In this document: positions 33,838 through 55,152 of the stretch, one piece after another
Layout: every line of letters starts with the position of its first letter
Numbering within the stretch: the stretch's first letter is position 1
Origin: Bdellovibrionales bacterium
GTDB lineage: Bacteria; Bdellovibrionota; Bdellovibrionia; Bdellovibrionales; JAMPXM01
Reading direction: 5' to 3'
NCBI GenBank assembly: GCA_005808505.1
Contig: SYLX01000208.1
Coordinates: 1 to 64,000, forward strand
Length of the DNA: 64,000 nucleotides
The notes under the pieces: generated by a model
Told to the model about the DNA's origin: nothing
The model's input: only the letters and a program-made list of their open reading frames with translations
The model's database searches: none
Position numbers and translations under genes: made by a program

Positions 33838-34323
33838 ATGATCGACAACCGTGGATTCAGCCTCATCGAAATGTTAGTTTCTGCTGCCATATTGGCATTT
33901 CTTGGAATCACCGTGACTGGATTGATTATACTCAACAAGTCAGCTGTGGCGGTTGATGTACGGCAGGATTCGCTCAGACGTCTCACAGTAAACACTGCTG
34001 AGATATTTCGTGACACCGGCTTTAGTCTCATGGCGAGTGAGTGCGCTCGACTAAATTTATTTGAGACCACCCAAACCCGATTTTGTACCGACGAGGGGGG
34101 CGTATTCCGCGAGAATCCTCCATCCACTGATTCATTTCTTCCGATCAGGCAAAGGGTCGATGTTTTCGCCAATCCTGATCAAAGCGGAGAGTTTTGTACT
34201 GAGGTATCGAGATGTCGTTACCTTGCGCGCGGTCGTCTACTCCAGGTCGAATTCGCGTCCTACTCTAAGAGCGCGGGCAGCGCGGCTAAGATTTCCGGGC
34301 ATATGGTGAGGATGGCACGATGA
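33838..34323 (+). CDS. Prepilin-type N-terminal domain protein (PilV-like minor pilin)
   Basis: RGFSLIEMLVSAAILAFLGITVTGLIIL class III signal. Confidence 0.85.
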   Translation: MIDNRGFSLIEMLVSAAILAFLGITVTGLIILNKSAVAVDVRQDSLRRLTVNTAEIFRDTGFSLMASECARLNLFETTQTRFCTDEGGVFRENPPSTDSFLPIRQRVDVFANPDQSGEFCTEVSRCRYLARGRLLQVEFASYSKSAGSAAKISGHMVRMAR

Positions 34324-35459
34324 AACAGGCAGGCTATTCTTTAGTCGAGTTATTGCTAGCGGCCGCCATTGGACTCATCGTTTTAGGAGGAGCCGGCTTT
34401 CTGATGGTCGAGCTCGGCCGATCTCAAACCATGATGCAGACTAACCTCGCAAATATGATCGACATATCAGCTCTCAGGTTGAAGCTTGGCCGCGAAGTTG
34501 GCGGAGCACAAATGCGCACTTTCGTTTTCACAGGAAATGCGGAAATCCAGAGTAGTGATGTGTGCAGTGCCTGTAGCAACGGAGATGATCGGCCTCTTGC
34601 GCGTTTCATAGTGCCGTTAGCTAACAAATGTCGGGATCTGAGCAAGTGCGACGGGGATATCACATTGCTGTTTTCCAGTCAGAGGCACCGGCGTGCGAAA
34701 CCAGTTGAAGCAGTCTGTTTCATTAATAGCGATCGACTTCTTTTGATGGAAGACCTTCCTGTGGGGGATCTGATTTCTCTCGTAGGCCCACCGAACTCGA
34801 CAATCTGGAGAACTGAAGGAGTTGCTGAGCCAATGACGGTCGATTCAGCCTCCGGAGCGCCTCTTCCGCCTGAATGTATAAATACGCTTCTTCAACTTCA
34901 CGGCAAAATCCCGACGTCCCAGCTCTACTCGCTGAAAGTGCGACCCGTGATCGGCGAGACTTTTACCAATGGAAGTTGTGTTTGCGAAAGCCATTCTCGA
35001 GCGGCAGTCAACTTTTTCCCGGCGCCAATTGTCGATGTCGAGATTTACTCTCTCGGTCTATCGCGATCGGGTAAGAGTGCGGATTGGGGACTGAATCGGT
35101 GTTCTTACGGCGTAGACGGTCGTAATTTAACGTGCACGACGCCGGCTGGATTCGCGATCGAAAACGTGAAGTCCGTTTTTATTCATCAGGAATTCGCTCG
35201 TTCGGATGCGAGTCTTCCGGGTATTCAATGGTTTGCCCTAACGCCGGAGAATACGGGAGTGTTAGATAAACATTGCCCAGTCGAAAGGTGCAAAAGCATG
35301 CTTCTACCAGAAGTGTTGAGGTCCAGATTGCCTGGCGAGGATTTCGAGAAGATCGATTACGAGAGATTTTCCCTCATTAAACAAGAAATATTGAGACGGA
35401 TCAGATTTTTTGTTCGGAGAAACAATGACCGAGTCTATTCGTCAGAAATCCAGTTCTGA
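34320..35459 (+). CDS. Prepilin-type domain protein (PilW-like minor pilin)
   Basis: GYSLVELLLAAAIGLIVLGGAGFLMVELGRSQ; overlaps the upstream gene. Confidence 0.85.
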   Translation: MKQAGYSLVELLLAAAIGLIVLGGAGFLMVELGRSQTMMQTNLANMIDISALRLKLGREVGGAQMRTFVFTGNAEIQSSDVCSACSNGDDRPLARFIVPLANKCRDLSKCDGDITLLFSSQRHRRAKPVEAVCFINSDRLLLMEDLPVGDLISLVGPPNSTIWRTEGVAEPMTVDSASGAPLPPECINTLLQLHGKIPTSQLYSLKVRPVIGETFTNGSCVCESHSRAAVNFFPAPIVDVEIYSLGLSRSGKSADWGLNRCSYGVDGRNLTCTTPAGFAIENVKSVFIHQEFARSDASLPGIQWFALTPENTGVLDKHCPVERCKSMLLPEVLRSRLPGEDFEKIDYERFSLIKQEILRRIRFFVRRNNDRVYSSEIQF

Positions 35460-36774
35460 GTGTGGTGGCATAGCGCTCATTTTCGTTATGGTCATCGCGG
35501 CTGTTTCGGCAGTCATGATGCTTGTTTTTCTTACCAATCGGGATACGAGCTTAAAAGCGTCGAAAATTGCATCACGAACGGCTATATCCGCGAGCGTCAC
35601 TAAAAGTGCTATCGAGACATTCCTGCTTGCGTGGAGACACAATGAATTAGCCTACATAAAAGCCGGCTCCGGTTGCAACAGGCTGAACAGTTTCATTGTC
35701 GCACTTAGAGAAGGCTCTGGCTGCGCCTCAGTTGACATCACGGTATTGGGAATCGGAATGCAGTCGAGCGATCCGTTTGTCGGTGCAGGCACATATGACT
35801 ATTCCGTCAGTGGCAACGGTTGTAAAATCACGGAGAAAAGTTCTACCTGTTCTTCGTATTCGAGTGAATTTCTCGAGCTGACAAAGCCTGGTCAGATGAT
35901 CCTGAATCATAGTTTTCATTTCTCTCTCGCGAACATCTATCCCAGCAGTCAAATGGCAGAGATTAACGTGCGCATTCGAGATCAGAATCAATCCACACCG
36001 ACGAGGATGACGTTCGCACTGCGTGATAACTTTGTAAATCTTGTGCATTTAGATCCGGTAGGACGAGTCGTTCAAGAACGGCCAGATCCACTATCGAGGT
36101 GTCCATCGAATGCGTGGGCACCGTATCTCGCCTACATTGGCGGCACCTGCCGTACTTTTGATATTCTTGGCAGTGGTACCGGGCTCGCTAGTTATAAAAA
36201 CAGGTATTTTGGCTTTCGCTCCCAAGACGGCACATTCATCGACTTAGCCGCCTTGAGTTCAGGGGCGGCGGCAAGCTCGTACATAGTGAAGCCGAATGGT
36301 GTTGTCGATGGAGCTGGAAAAGTCTTTGTCTCCTATCCGGATCCAAGCGATCCTGCCAACAGCTTAAGAAACGTCGATGACGTCACGCTAATCGATGAGC
36401 AAGTTTATTTTGTGGCCGGAGTTAGCGACTCAACAAAGATTGGGGTCGTTACCCCTTCGGCCACGAAATTTGAATTCAAAACGATCTGTCCGCTGGGAAA
36501 GGCAGGATGGGCGCAATCAAACTCGGGTCTCGCCGTCGCGGCATGGAGTGAGCCTTTGGTTGCGATGCCTGGCGACCCGATTTCGGGAACTCGGTACGCG
36601 AAGTTCTTTATCAAGAGCGATTCAGGGGATTTACTCACAACATTTGTGGTTTCAGATGGTGTCTCAAACTTCGAATGTTACACGTTCAAGGATCCGCTGC
36701 TCCAGCAAATCGAATATCGGCGAACGATGGGATTCGATCGATCTGTTCCCGAGAAGATCTACTTCCTCTACTAG
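35425..36774 (+). CDS. PilX-like pilus assembly protein
   Basis: ECGGIALIFVMVIAAVSAVMMLVFLTNRDTS N-terminal helix; overlaps PilW-like ORF. Confidence 0.65.
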   Translation: MTESIRQKSSSECGGIALIFVMVIAAVSAVMMLVFLTNRDTSLKASKIASRTAISASVTKSAIETFLLAWRHNELAYIKAGSGCNRLNSFIVALREGSGCASVDITVLGIGMQSSDPFVGAGTYDYSVSGNGCKITEKSSTCSSYSSEFLELTKPGQMILNHSFHFSLANIYPSSQMAEINVRIRDQNQSTPTRMTFALRDNFVNLVHLDPVGRVVQERPDPLSRCPSNAWAPYLAYIGGTCRTFDILGSGTGLASYKNRYFGFRSQDGTFIDLAALSSGAAASSYIVKPNGVVDGAGKVFVSYPDPSDPANSLRNVDDVTLIDEQVYFVAGVSDSTKIGVVTPSATKFEFKTICPLGKAGWAQSNSGLAVAAWSEPLVAMPGDPISGTRYAKFFIKSDSGDLLTTFVVSDGVSNFECYTFKDPLLQQIEYRRTMGFDRSVPEKIYFLY

Positions 36775-37925: not shown

Positions 37926-38516
37926 ATGGCATTGGCATTTCTTGTAACCGGAACTTTTTCTTTATTTTTCTTCGGTTCCATCGGCCTGCTCCTGCTTCGC
38001 ATGTACAATGCGCTCGTCGAGAACCGGAATCGCGCCGAGCTAGCGTGGTCAAATATTGATGTAGCTCTCAAGCAGCGATTCGATGAAATCCCTCAGCTTA
38101 TTAAAGTTATTGAACACTACGTCCAGTACGAAAAAAACATTATCTCCGAACTTCTTCGGGCAAGATCGAATTACGGTTTAGCGGGTTCCATCAACGACAA
38201 GATCGAAGCGGCAAAACTTCTATCGATCGCCTTCGATGGTGCTATGGCGATTGGTGAAGCGTATCCGGATCTCAAATCAAGTGAGCATTTTAGCCAGCTG
38301 CAATCACGAATCTCAAACCTCGAAGCGCGGATCGCAGATCGACGAGAAACCTACAACGAATCTGTAGCGATCTATAACACCCGGATCGCTCAATTTCCGG
38401 AGATCATCTTCGCGAGACTCTTTACGTATGAACCCCTCGTTCTATTTGATGTTGCCGAAATCGAAAAGGAGCGAGCGCATCTGCGTGGCTCGATAGAGCG
38501 AGACGACGTGGCATGA
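37926..38516 (+). CDS. lemA: LemA family protein
   Basis: LLLRMYNALVENRNRAELAWSNIDVALKQRFDEIPQLIKVIEHYVQYEK. Confidence 0.9.
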   Translation: MALAFLVTGTFSLFFFGSIGLLLLRMYNALVENRNRAELAWSNIDVALKQRFDEIPQLIKVIEHYVQYEKNIISELLRARSNYGLAGSINDKIEAAKLLSIAFDGAMAIGEAYPDLKSSEHFSQLQSRISNLEARIADRRETYNESVAIYNTRIAQFPEIIFARLFTYEPLVLFDVAEIEKERAHLRGSIERDDVA

Positions 38517-40798
38517 AGAGTGTCATTCAGCTATACGTCATCCTAACGATTTTTTTGTTCTCCCGTGGTGCATGGAATCTCTTTAGGGCGCACTCGCGAA
38601 TCAATCAGAGACGGAAGATTTCTGATACGCCGCGAGCGAAGACGGCAACTGCCGCGGCAGGGTCCGTCGAGTTCGAAGGCTTTGCGTGGCCAATCGCAGC
38701 GCCAGCGATCACCATCCACGGTTTTCGAGCCGTCTATCATGAGTTCGATCTCGAGGAACTTGTTGGATCCGGCAAAACTCGAAGGTGGGTACGTGTTTAT
38801 TCGAAGAGAACGAGTGACAGTTTCTATTTTCTCGACGGGACCGGGCTGGTTGAGATCAAGCCGAAGGACGCGGAGCTTGGTCTGATTTCGAGCGGCAAAA
38901 CGTCCTGGACATCACTTGATGAAGTCACAAAAGACCGAGTATTGAACGAAATCATCACGAACAGGGTAGATCGGTTTCCGCCAACAAAGCTCATGTTCGG
39001 CCTGACGACAGGAACTTTCCGCGTGAGCGAACGCAATATTCTGGTTGGCTCGCCACTCTACGTGCGCGGCAAGCTTGCGCGATGGTCGGAACCGGTTTTG
39101 ATTTCCGATATCGCACTTGCCACGTTTTCGAGCCATGCCCTCGATTTTGGAATCGGCAAAGTTAGAAACCTCGATCGTTTAATTGATCGGGATCGAGATG
39201 GAAAAGTCTCTCGCGAAGAGGCGATCAAAGGTTACAGTGCTGTTGCAACCCTGGCTACTCAGAACAGCACGCCGGCGCTAGGCTTCGACGCCAAAAATCT
39301 GGTTTGTTTTGGTTCCTTGGAAAAAAAGGACCAAGAGCTTTTTATCGCGGACTCCCATGAGAAAAACCTTCTAGAGTCAGTTTCCGACGGAAATGCCAGG
39401 GCGGTCTTCTGGGGATCTGCGCAGCTAACCGTAAGTGTGTTGATGGTTTTGACTTTCTTCTTCACGAACATCGCAGTTGAATTGGTGAGAGATGCGGCGA
39501 GAGCATTACGCGGAGAAAAAAGCGTAGCGATGCTCGATGAAGAGCGTCGGATAAAGGATCAAGAACTCCGCCAAAGTATTCAGTCGCACAGTGATTGTAA
39601 GAAAAGTCCCGACCACTGTCGTCTCATCGCTTACGAGTTTTTAGGTACGACGAATCGAAATCCACAAGCTGCTCTTGCCTATTTGCACGCTTCGTGTGAG
39701 CTCGGGAACGGTGATGCCTGTCGATATATCGCGTTCGCGGCGGATACACTTGGTGTCTCTCATGATCTCGCTAGGGCCTATCTTTGGACCGGCTGCAGTA
39801 GTGGTCAGCCCGATTCGTGCGAGGAATGGTTCTCGAAGTCGCGAGCGCAAGAAACTCCTGCCGACTTGCAACGTCTGAAGTCGCTGCCGCCTGACTTAAA
39901 GACAATCTTGGCGATCCGCTCACTTTTAGTGGATGGTGAAAAGTTCAATCTTGAGCTTTTCATCTCCGCCTGCAGCTCAGGTTCGAGTCGAGCTTGTGAA
40001 GAGATGCAGCGTAAGATGCGTGCGCAGGTTTCGCCTCCAGACCCAGTCTTTAACGGCGGTATGTCGAAAAAGATCTCGAGGGCGCACTTTGAAAAAAAGC
40101 TTTGCGATTATCATACGAAACGACACCAGCAAGCAGACTTAACGGCGAATTTTGTAGAAGGCGAGTGCGACGGTTACTTCATCAGCGGATTCTGGGGCAC
40201 ATCCGCCGGGATCGAGAATGGTGCGTACATGACTCTGACCGGGCCCGGCCCCTTGAAATGCGATCACAAAACGATCGGATCGCTCATGGGTGAGGCTTGC
40301 GCCGAAGGAACACCACCGGCCGAATTCCTTTTAGTTGGAAAAAATCAGCAAACTCTCCTGCTCGTTGGAACTCCACCGGACTTTAAATTCAACGAAACTG
40401 TTTCAGTTAGCGAAAGTGATCTTGAGCCCCCGAGAGTGTCTTCAAGCCAACAATCGCCTGATCTCTGTCCCACGCAAGGCTCAGCGCAACCTCACGGCGT
40501 CAATCTCAAGGAGATCGGGAAAGAGCTAATAATAGGCGATGAGCTGCTGCGACCAATGTCGGTTTCGCAGAGTAGGGTCGGATCTGGGTTTCAACTCGTT
40601 TATCTACGTAAGAATTCGCCACTGACTCGGCTTGGTTTCGAAGCACGCGACATTATCTTCGGTATCAACGGCAAGAGGATTTCGAACCGCGAACAGCTCT
40701 TTGAGTTTGCAGCTGCGCTCGTAGAGGGGGCTCCGAGCTGCTTGCGATGGAAAAAAGGGACAGGAGAAATCTATCAGCGAGATTTCTCAACGATGTAG
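38513..40798 (+). CDS. GIDE/MUL1-like domain + EF-hand + TM + Sel1-like repeats + C-terminal PDZ
   Basis: TRRWVRVYSKRTSDSFYFLDGTGLVEIKPKDAE; DRDRDGKVSREE canonical EF-hand loop; CELGNGDACRYIA; GFQLVYLRKNSPLTRLGFEARDIIFGINGKRISNREQLFEFA PDZ; 4-nt overlap with lemA. Confidence 0.8.
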   Translation: MKSVIQLYVILTIFLFSRGAWNLFRAHSRINQRRKISDTPRAKTATAAAGSVEFEGFAWPIAAPAITIHGFRAVYHEFDLEELVGSGKTRRWVRVYSKRTSDSFYFLDGTGLVEIKPKDAELGLISSGKTSWTSLDEVTKDRVLNEIITNRVDRFPPTKLMFGLTTGTFRVSERNILVGSPLYVRGKLARWSEPVLISDIALATFSSHALDFGIGKVRNLDRLIDRDRDGKVSREEAIKGYSAVATLATQNSTPALGFDAKNLVCFGSLEKKDQELFIADSHEKNLLESVSDGNARAVFWGSAQLTVSVLMVLTFFFTNIAVELVRDAARALRGEKSVAMLDEERRIKDQELRQSIQSHSDCKKSPDHCRLIAYEFLGTTNRNPQAALAYLHASCELGNGDACRYIAFAADTLGVSHDLARAYLWTGCSSGQPDSCEEWFSKSRAQETPADLQRLKSLPPDLKTILAIRSLLVDGEKFNLELFISACSSGSSRACEEMQRKMRAQVSPPDPVFNGGMSKKISRAHFEKKLCDYHTKRHQQADLTANFVEGECDGYFISGFWGTSAGIENGAYMTLTGPGPLKCDHKTIGSLMGEACAEGTPPAEFLLVGKNQQTLLLVGTPPDFKFNETVSVSESDLEPPRVSSSQQSPDLCPTQGSAQPHGVNLKEIGKELIIGDELLRPMSVSQSRVGSGFQLVYLRKNSPLTRLGFEARDIIFGINGKRISNREQLFEFAAALVEGAPSCLRWKKGTGEIYQRDFSTM

Positions 40799-42710: not shown

Positions 42711-43883
42711 CTATTCCGCTCGCTTCGAGGAACCGACGAACTCGTAGAGGTCACTGCAGTCACTCAGGTCGTCACTCATGTTATTCCGTATGTAAGGCAA
42801 TTGCGCGGCAAGCGGAAAGTGAAAGGATTTAGAATTAGGATCGGAGCTCGATGTACAACCGACCTTAAACGTTAGGTTCTTGCCTCGACCGAAGATTCCG
42901 GTGCCGGCAAACGATTTGATGATGGCGTGTTTAACCGTGACGTTCTCTGCGTGGGTCATTTCATCACCGTCGAAATGCACAGCGTTGGTCGTGCCCTTGA
43001 TGTAAAGTTCGCGCACGATCGCGTTCTTCACGCCGCTCAGTTCTCTCGTTCTGAATCTGATGCCGGTATTCTCAGACATCCCACGCGGGTTCTCGCGCCT
43101 AGGGGCTGTGATGATGGTGATACCTTTCAAGTAAACATCATCATAGCTGATATCGATCGCAGCAGCACTGCGTTCATCGTTGAAGCCAATCTCGCTGATG
43201 ATCAGGTCGCGTGCATCAAAATTTTTATTTCCGCCCATTGGGCGTTTCGTGTCGATTGCATCCATGCCGCTATTGTAGATTTCGACCGAACGCAGCCAAA
43301 GATTATTCGCGGAGATATCGGTTGATCCTCCGTTTTGAACGCCGATCCCGTAGCCAGGGGCATTCATAATCCGGGTGTTCTCGATTTTTAGAAATCCGTC
43401 GCGCCAGCCATTACCAACACGTATTCCGTGTCCAGATGAAGAACATCCACCGTCACGAAACTGCGAGGTGTCTCGAGTGTTTTTCATCTCTATGCCCAAA
43501 CGATCAATTTCTAATCTCATGATATCGAACCCAGAGCTTCGATCGATATTAATGACCGAACCCAAACAGCCATTATCAACGATCGGAGCTGAGGACAAAA
43601 TGCTGGTCTGTGAAGAGTGTCCGATAAGTCGAAGGTTCACGACTGCGGAGTTAAGACTGATAGACTTGCGAAGATTATAGATTCCGGCCGGGAAATAAAC
43701 TGTCCGATGAGGAAGCTTGCTGGCCGCGGCGATCGCATTCTCAATTTTTTGATCGATTGACGTGCCCGCAAACTTTGTTACGTCGCAGTTGTGTGCACTG
43801 CAAGGAGCTTCTCCGCGAGCAACGGTTGCGGAGACGACTGATGCGGTCAAAGTCAGTAATGTCATGACAGTTAGAGTCTTCAC
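42711..43883 (-). CDS. Secreted right-handed beta-helix (pectate-lyase-superfamily-like) protein
   Basis: Signal peptide; HRTVYFPAGIYNLRKSISL and GYGIGVQNGGSTDISANNLWLRSVEIYNSGMDAID repeats. Confidence 0.75.
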   Translation of the reverse strand: MKTLTVMTLLTLTASVVSATVARGEAPCSAHNCDVTKFAGTSIDQKIENAIAAASKLPHRTVYFPAGIYNLRKSISLNSAVVNLRLIGHSSQTSILSSAPIVDNGCLGSVINIDRSSGFDIMRLEIDRLGIEMKNTRDTSQFRDGGCSSSGHGIRVGNGWRDGFLKIENTRIMNAPGYGIGVQNGGSTDISANNLWLRSVEIYNSGMDAIDTKRPMGGNKNFDARDLIISEIGFNDERSAAAIDISYDDVYLKGITIITAPRRENPRGMSENTGIRFRTRELSGVKNAIVRELYIKGTTNAVHFDGDEMTHAENVTVKHAIIKSFAGTGIFGRGKNLTFKVGCTSSSDPNSKSFHFPLAAQLPYIRNNMSDDLSDCSDLYEFVGSSKRAE

Positions 43884-54165: not shown

Positions 54166-54351
54166 GAACTGAATCGACCTCAATGAGTTTCTCGATTTCC
54201 GATTTCGAAATGTTTCGCTAAACTGCTTTTAATCAGTCGTGCAGGTAATGCGATCAAAGGAAAATTCCTCGACGGGAAGACAACGGAAAAATTGGATCGA
54301 TAGTATCCGTGGATACCGTCAGGGATAGACCTTCGGAGAAAGAAAAACTCA

Positions 54352-55152
54352 GTGAGCAGAAGAATATACCTCGCCGTTTTCGCAACGATCATTCTCGTTG
54401 GTTCATTCATATATTATTCCTTGCGCGAGTTGGGGTCGCTGAAGCCTGATCAACCGATCAGTGCAGACACAGCAAACACCGCAATGGAGCTTGAGAACCC
54501 TCCTAAAAATGGACCCGTCCCTCCTCTAGCAAATGAAGTCGCAAAACAAGAAATCGCCGCTGTTTCGGAGTTGCCGTATTCTCTTGTCGGCACAATCGTT
54601 CGCACCGATTCTACTCAAAGTATCGCGACCGTCGCCATTAAGCCGAATGAATCTAAAAACTACCTCCCTCAATCAGAGATCGAGCAGGTCGCAGTGGTTG
54701 AGCGAATCGAGCGAGAGGTCCTGAAGTTTCGGAACAAGAAAAACGGGCGGCTCGAGTACATCCGCGTTGGGCCTTACGATCCGAAGAAGGCGGTTTCGTT
54801 GGACGTCATCAATGATCAGGCGACATCCGAGAAAGAGTTTCATGTCCAACGAAAAAACCTCGACGAAGCGCTCTCGAATTTGCCGGAAATCCTAAAAGAT
54901 GCAGCCGTGATCCCGGTCATGAATGATGCTGGTCAAGTAGCTGGATTCAAGATCACATTCCTGAAAAAAGGAAGCGTGTTTGCAAGCTTAGGGCTGCAAG
55001 AGGGTGACGTTTTAAAAACTGTCAATGGGGCTACTCTCGATAGTCCCGCGACAGCCGTCGAACTGTTCACGCAGTTTCAGAATAGTTCCATGATCAACCT
55101 CGCGATTGAACGTGGGCAGAGACGCATCGGTTTGACGTATTTGATCCGGTAA
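54352..55152 (+). CDS. Type II secretion GspC-like protein with C-terminal PDZ
   Basis: N-terminal TM; PYSLVGTIVRTDSTQSIATVAIKPNESKNYL homology-region pattern; FLKKGSVFASLGLQEGDVLKTVNGATLDSPATAVELF. Confidence 0.75.
   Translation: MSRRIYLAVFATIILVGSFIYYSLRELGSLKPDQPISADTANTAMELENPPKNGPVPPLANEVAKQEIAAVSELPYSLVGTIVRTDSTQSIATVAIKPNESKNYLPQSEIEQVAVVERIEREVLKFRNKKNGRLEYIRVGPYDPKKAVSLDVINDQATSEKEFHVQRKNLDEALSNLPEILKDAAVIPVMNDAGQVAGFKITFLKKGSVFASLGLQEGDVLKTVNGATLDSPATAVELFTQFQNSSMINLAIERGQRRIGLTYLIR

Follow-up and report, generated by a model that had tools for sequence, protein, structure and literature searches.

Most GIDE-domain proteins encoded beside lemA carry a single EF-hand that is conserved and, from its sequence, predicted to bind calcium. 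We describe this core, together with a new variant on it in which Sel1-like repeats and a PDZ domain are added at the C-terminus, from a 64,000-nucleotide stretch of Bdellovibrionales DNA (contig SYLX01000208.1) that is referred to in its entirety as the window. The pairing of LemA and GIDE genes is already known. A search of the open-licence literature for LemA in connection with an EF-hand or GIDE returned nothing relevant, an absence that is not proof, and as far as we found there an EF-hand within LemA-linked GIDE proteins is apparently undescribed; neither LemA nor GIDE is named in the main text of two papers on calcium. Gene order, domains, ligand conservation, the core fold, and sidedness as judged by charge and cysteines are supported by the evidence set out below. 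The most likely functional reading, to which we give an even chance, is that the protein is a calcium-responsive inner-membrane partner of LemA with a species-specific periplasmic binding arm.

The lemA operon and the membrane core of the partner protein

The first gene of the operon (37926..38516, + strand) encodes a 196-aa protein that belongs to the LemA family by its PF04011 match (E=1.4e-40; 139 bits against a cut-off of 26.2), with a single N-terminal transmembrane helix (TM) at residues 6-24 by hydropathy and no cysteines. It also gives a match to MamQ, the LemA-family protein required in magnetosome formation (PMC4902198), which is under the cut-off (E=4e-19, 69 of 250 bits), and LemA-family membership does not imply MamQ function. 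The partner gene (38513..40798, + strand; 761 aa) shares 4 bp with the 3’ end of lemA, as ATGA, an overlap that implies translational coupling. The preliminary description of 37926-40798, LemA beside a 761-aa GIDE-like membrane protein, was right in both coordinates and lengths. The partner comprises, in order, TM1, a GIDE/BAM domain, one EF-hand loop, TM2, Cys-paired Sel1-like repeats, a stretch at residues 511-665 and a GspC-type PDZ domain. Taken singly, the protein scores under the curated Pfam cut-off for every one of its matches (PDZ_6 1.7e-4, GIDE 8e-4, EF-hand_5 0.017), and its domain assignments were therefore strengthened by family-level evidence.

The GIDE/BAM beta domain (residues 50-197; 38660..39103, +; AlphaFold2 pLDDT ~90-98) sits between two TM helices, which the AlphaFold2 core model places within helices 2-38 and 283-332. 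This model, built from a 102-sequence alignment, has a pLDDT of 93.1 and a pTM of 0.86. TM1 (residues ~5-24; 38525..38584, +) is followed by an Arg/Lys-rich stretch; its hydropathy score in the window protein is below the 1.5 threshold, and it had been overlooked in the preliminary description, whose central TM is confirmed by hydropathy and the model as TM2 (residues 307-325; 39431..39487, +). Residues G50, E53 and G56 of the GIDE domain are invariant in the family alignment. Although the window protein itself scores 19.3 bits with PF12483 against a cut-off of 23.6, homologues including two that are 31 and 30% identical to it (L019 and L021) exceed that cut-off, so that the GIDE assignment originally proposed is upheld, with membership of the GIDE/BAM family established only via these relatives.

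No solved fold for the GIDE domain was found in the PDB at E<=0.001. An OB-fold identity was considered and rejected, the matches to PriB and SSB being weak and not significant. GIDE domains are known from bacteria, and in human MAPL/MUL1/GIDE the BAM/GIDE domain likewise lies between two TMs (PMC4457424). MAPL ends in a C-terminal RING, whereas a Pfam search of the window protein gave no RING match, and the partner is therefore not a MAPL-type E3 ligase; the two differ further in that the window protein contains an EF-hand.

Conservation and distribution of the EF-hand

The EF-hand consists of a single canonical loop, DRDRDGKVSREE (residues 225-236; 39185..39220, +), that meets the 12-residue pattern with ligands at positions 1, 3, 5 and 12 and a hydrophobic residue at position 8. 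In the AlphaFold2 model it forms a helix-loop-helix, with a short helix at 221-224 and a long one at 234-250. Among 103 aligned sequences, 95 have the insert, and in these the ligand columns are strongly kept: D225 (Asp1) and E236 (Glu12) in 92/95 each, N or D at position 3 in 88/95, D or N at position 5 in 91/95, and Gly6 in 84/95. The non-ligand positions 2, 4, 7, 10 and 11 (residues 226, 228, 231, 234 and 235) vary, with entropies of 2.6-3.3 bits, and D1, D5 and E12 are invariant across 12 divergent members. Furthermore, a 12-sequence profile (A2) matches calmodulin at 1.3e-7, with the alignment over the EF region. A chance motif is ruled out by these conserved columns and by shuffling, which yielded a canonical loop in just 0.18% of protein shuffles.

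The combination of GIDE and EF-hand beside LemA recurs widely. Two paralogues of the partner are present in the window's own genome: one of 403 aa, with LemA directly upstream and the EF loop DKNNDGKVSKEE, and one of 720 aa, without either. Within the same order, relatives occur in 11/141 genomes, and the LemA-adjacent members retain the EF loop. Across the phylum they occur in 32/369 genomes, and most LemA-adjacent members bear the loop (by motif search, with L066, L072 and L084 assigned by eye). LemA-adjacent GIDE proteins without the loop were found in one genus (L073-L077), at L082 and at L187, and in another (L081) the loop is degenerate; the pair is therefore possible without an EF-hand. 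For the phylum set, a hand tally that ignores kinship gave an association of EF-hand with LemA adjacency (odds ratio 7.7, p=0.035), which was not significant in the Gammaproteobacteria set.

A GTDB-wide scan with EF-positive queries gave 217 relatives, mainly from Gammaproteobacteria, and among the 80 that were kept most have one canonical loop in the same place, and nearly all have LemA within the retrieved DNA. Because EF-positive queries are biased, an EF-blind Pfam GIDE search was added, covering 321 genomes from the class of Marinobacterium litorale (Gammaproteobacteria), of which 67 had a match. The best 30 GIDE loci included 27 with the EF loop and 27 with LemA adjacent, and one of the three loop-negative loci ends at a contig boundary. 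A TM-GIDE-EF-hand-TM core beside LemA is thus common, and the adjacent lemA and two-TM GIDE gene of the window, EF-hand included, resemble the pair at most of the gammaproteobacterial loci sampled. The recurrence of the core at phylum, GTDB-wide and Gammaproteobacteria levels rules out a one-off fusion as far as the core is concerned. No conserved third neighbour gene that would hint at a pathway was found for the LemA-GIDE pair, the third largest cluster resembling antisense frames, and no phage or plasmid relatives were found.

Several variants of the pair were recorded alongside these counts. In one genome (G176; L048, 35-1252) a tandem pair of LemA genes precedes an EF-less GIDE gene. A long N-terminal extension and a downstream LemA are shared by three GIDE-EF proteins (496-670 aa; L087, 800-2290; L088, 1810-3801; L090, 1804-3816) from genomes of Edwardsbacteria and deltaproteobacteria; the extensions of L087 and L090 give weak matches to membrane proteins. 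Long GIDE paralogues of 714-753 aa (L004, 3761-5923, - strand; L028, 4534-6678, - strand; L024, 5803-8064, + strand) have no nearby LemA and an EF loop that is absent or degenerate, and keep paired cysteines near the end, with weak beta-propeller matches past TM2 in L028. Frames of 759-763 aa on two further contigs (G444:C2 and G509:C11) each match GIDE at two separate places and may hold the domain in tandem.

Single EF-hands often require a partner hand. One loop per protein was found in the phylum set, in the 80 relatives and at the 30 Gammaproteobacteria loci, and no paired hand is seen in the AlphaFold2 core model; the site might therefore be structural or hold another metal. The main alternative to a calcium-responsive partner, which we hold to be possible but on balance doubtful, is accordingly that the EF-hand is a permanently occupied site that steadies the fold, within a static membrane-shaping or scaffold complex comparable to MamQ, a LemA member tied to a cellular process (PMC4902198). 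The LemA-adjacent GIDE proteins that lack the loop speak in favour of this too. However, most members retain the loop although the remaining sequence has diverged to ~20-30% identity. Cytoplasmic free calcium is normally low, and the predicted cytoplasmic place of the loop would suit a sensor better than a permanently filled site.

The C-terminal tail and the sidedness of the protein

Ordinary GIDE partners are ~300-330 aa long and usually end soon after TM2, whereas the window protein continues into repeats, a further stretch and a PDZ. The Cys-paired Sel1-like repeats (residues 362-495; 39596..39997, +) are of Hcp type, with four C-x6/7-C pairs and PDB matches to HcpB (1klx, E=4e-5) and, more weakly, 1ouv (0.043); the Pfam Sel1 match is under the cut-off (0.019). 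Helicobacter Hcp proteins have C-x7-C Sel1-like repeats of the same kind but are free secreted proteins, whereas the repeats of the window protein are tethered behind a TM. Shorter Cys-paired tails are found in same-order LemA-GIDE-EF proteins (L004, L019, L020, L021 and L023, and a half-tail in L022). They share the upstream LemA, the EF loop and two C-x7-C motifs past TM2, or close variants, but have one to two repeats and no PDZ, in contrast to the four Cys pairs and PDZ of the window protein. The following stretch (residues 511-665; 40043..40507, +) has no domain assignment, residues 511-670 giving no Pfam or PDB match.

The putative GspC-type PDZ domain (residues 671-761; 40523..40795, +) scores 1.4e-5 with PDZ_6 when isolated, just below the cut-off (25.2 against 27 bits), and its best PDB matches are PDZ domains at E=0.0015-0.005. 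The full-length AlphaFold2 model, built from 8 sequences, was poor, chiefly in the tail (pLDDT 53), and was left aside for the PDZ because of this low confidence. NCBIfam GspC_delta matches the PDZ part only (0.0012; 18.6 against 150 bits), and the domain's best relatives across the phylum are mostly GspC-type proteins. The C-terminal PDZ of GspC, a type II secretion protein, aligns with it, preceding segment included, but at only ~25-33% identity, and the GspC N-terminal region is missing, so the whole protein is not GspC. This PDZ was found on none of the other LemA-GIDE proteins examined. The canonical EF-hand loop and the Cys-paired repeats of the preliminary description are thus borne out by family and structural matches, and its PDZ-like domain is probably right, while its elaborate fusion proves out of the ordinary only for the Sel1-PDZ tail, the rest of the architecture being common.

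Directly upstream of the operon lies a pseudopilin-like cluster (33838-36774), with two genes bearing type IV pilin-like N_methyl signals (33838 and 34320) and, as its third member, an ORF whose product begins with a hydrophobic segment. Elsewhere in the window are a gene for a 282-aa GspC-like protein (54304-55152; GspC_delta 1.3e-36, below the cut-off) and one for a right-handed beta-helix, pectate-lyase-like protein (42711-43883, - strand; PF12708 1.5e-5, just below the cut-off). The genome's own GspC (L166), which lies outside the window and is above the GspC cut-off, and the 54304-55152 product are both weak relatives of the PDZ domain. The pseudopilin-like cluster, the 54304-55152 gene and the affinity of the PDZ to GspC could mean that the Sel1-PDZ tail is the working end of an accessory to type II secretion or pili, its GspC-type PDZ being borrowed, with LemA-GIDE a mere membrane anchor. 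We consider this very improbable, since the PDZ is absent from all LemA-GIDE-EF homologues examined, a GspC-family gene is also found elsewhere in the genome, and adjacency in a single genome may be chance.

The orientation of the protein was judged from charge and cysteines. Across 78 homologues, K+R per 15 residues averages 3.6 after TM1 and 3.4 before TM2, on the GIDE side. On the opposite side the averages are 0.65 (before TM1) and 0.83 (after TM2). A second charge count agrees in sign in 102/102 sequences, a figure that overstates independence because the sequences are related and the rows trimmed. By the positive-inside rule for membrane protein orientation, this bias places GIDE and the EF-hand in the cytoplasm and both ends in the periplasm, and the cysteine-rich Sel1/PDZ tail would therefore be periplasmic. 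The cysteine counts, which are 1 for residues 1-330 and 14 for residues 331-761 (p=0.003), and the C-x6/7-C pairs support this placement of the tail.

A reversed topology, with GIDE and the EF-hand in the calcium-rich periplasm and the Sel1-PDZ tail in the cytoplasm, would parallel MAPL, whose BAM domain faces the intermembrane space (PMC4457424). In the window protein, moreover, TM2 is directly followed by four K/R, and the charge evidence is less compelling in its case. Nonetheless, the family charge bias is strongly opposite, TM1 has a leader of just two residues with six K/R behind it, and Hcp-type repeats and GspC PDZ domains both come from exported or periplasmic proteins. We therefore think the reversed arrangement unlikely.

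A candidate calcium-responsive membrane pair

For the favoured reading, that of a calcium-responsive LemA partner, we infer calcium binding, complex formation, the direction of signalling and a periplasmic target. One operon would yield LemA and the 761-aa protein, which would form a pair in the inner membrane. The partner would span the membrane twice, with GIDE and the EF-hand on the cytoplasmic side next to the predicted helical domain of LemA. A rise in cytoplasmic calcium, for example through envelope leakage, may lead the EF-hand to bind calcium, and the bound form could shift the long helix (234-250), which lies between the GIDE sheet and TM2, altering the LemA-GIDE assembly. In this species TM2 would be followed in the periplasm by an arm made of disulphide-linked Sel1-like repeats and the GspC-type PDZ, which might pass this state on to a partner in the envelope or anchor it. 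The term calcium-responsive, used in the preliminary description, fits the conserved loop ligands; its scaffold role agrees with the repeats and PDZ predicted for the periplasm by analogy only, and the envelope-stress role that it suggested is at most speculative.

More broadly, LemA-GIDE may tentatively be regarded as a widespread bacterial module for sensing cytoplasmic calcium at the membrane, made trans-envelope here by a disulphide-bridged arm of repeats and PDZ; we put this forward as a possibility rather than an expectation. In cultivable Gammaproteobacteria, the conserved EF-hand of the usual GIDE partner is a concrete handle, consisting of two ligand residues and one ion. The extended window protein, in turn, hints at the side of the membrane on which the C-terminus lies, and it offers a natural bait domain.
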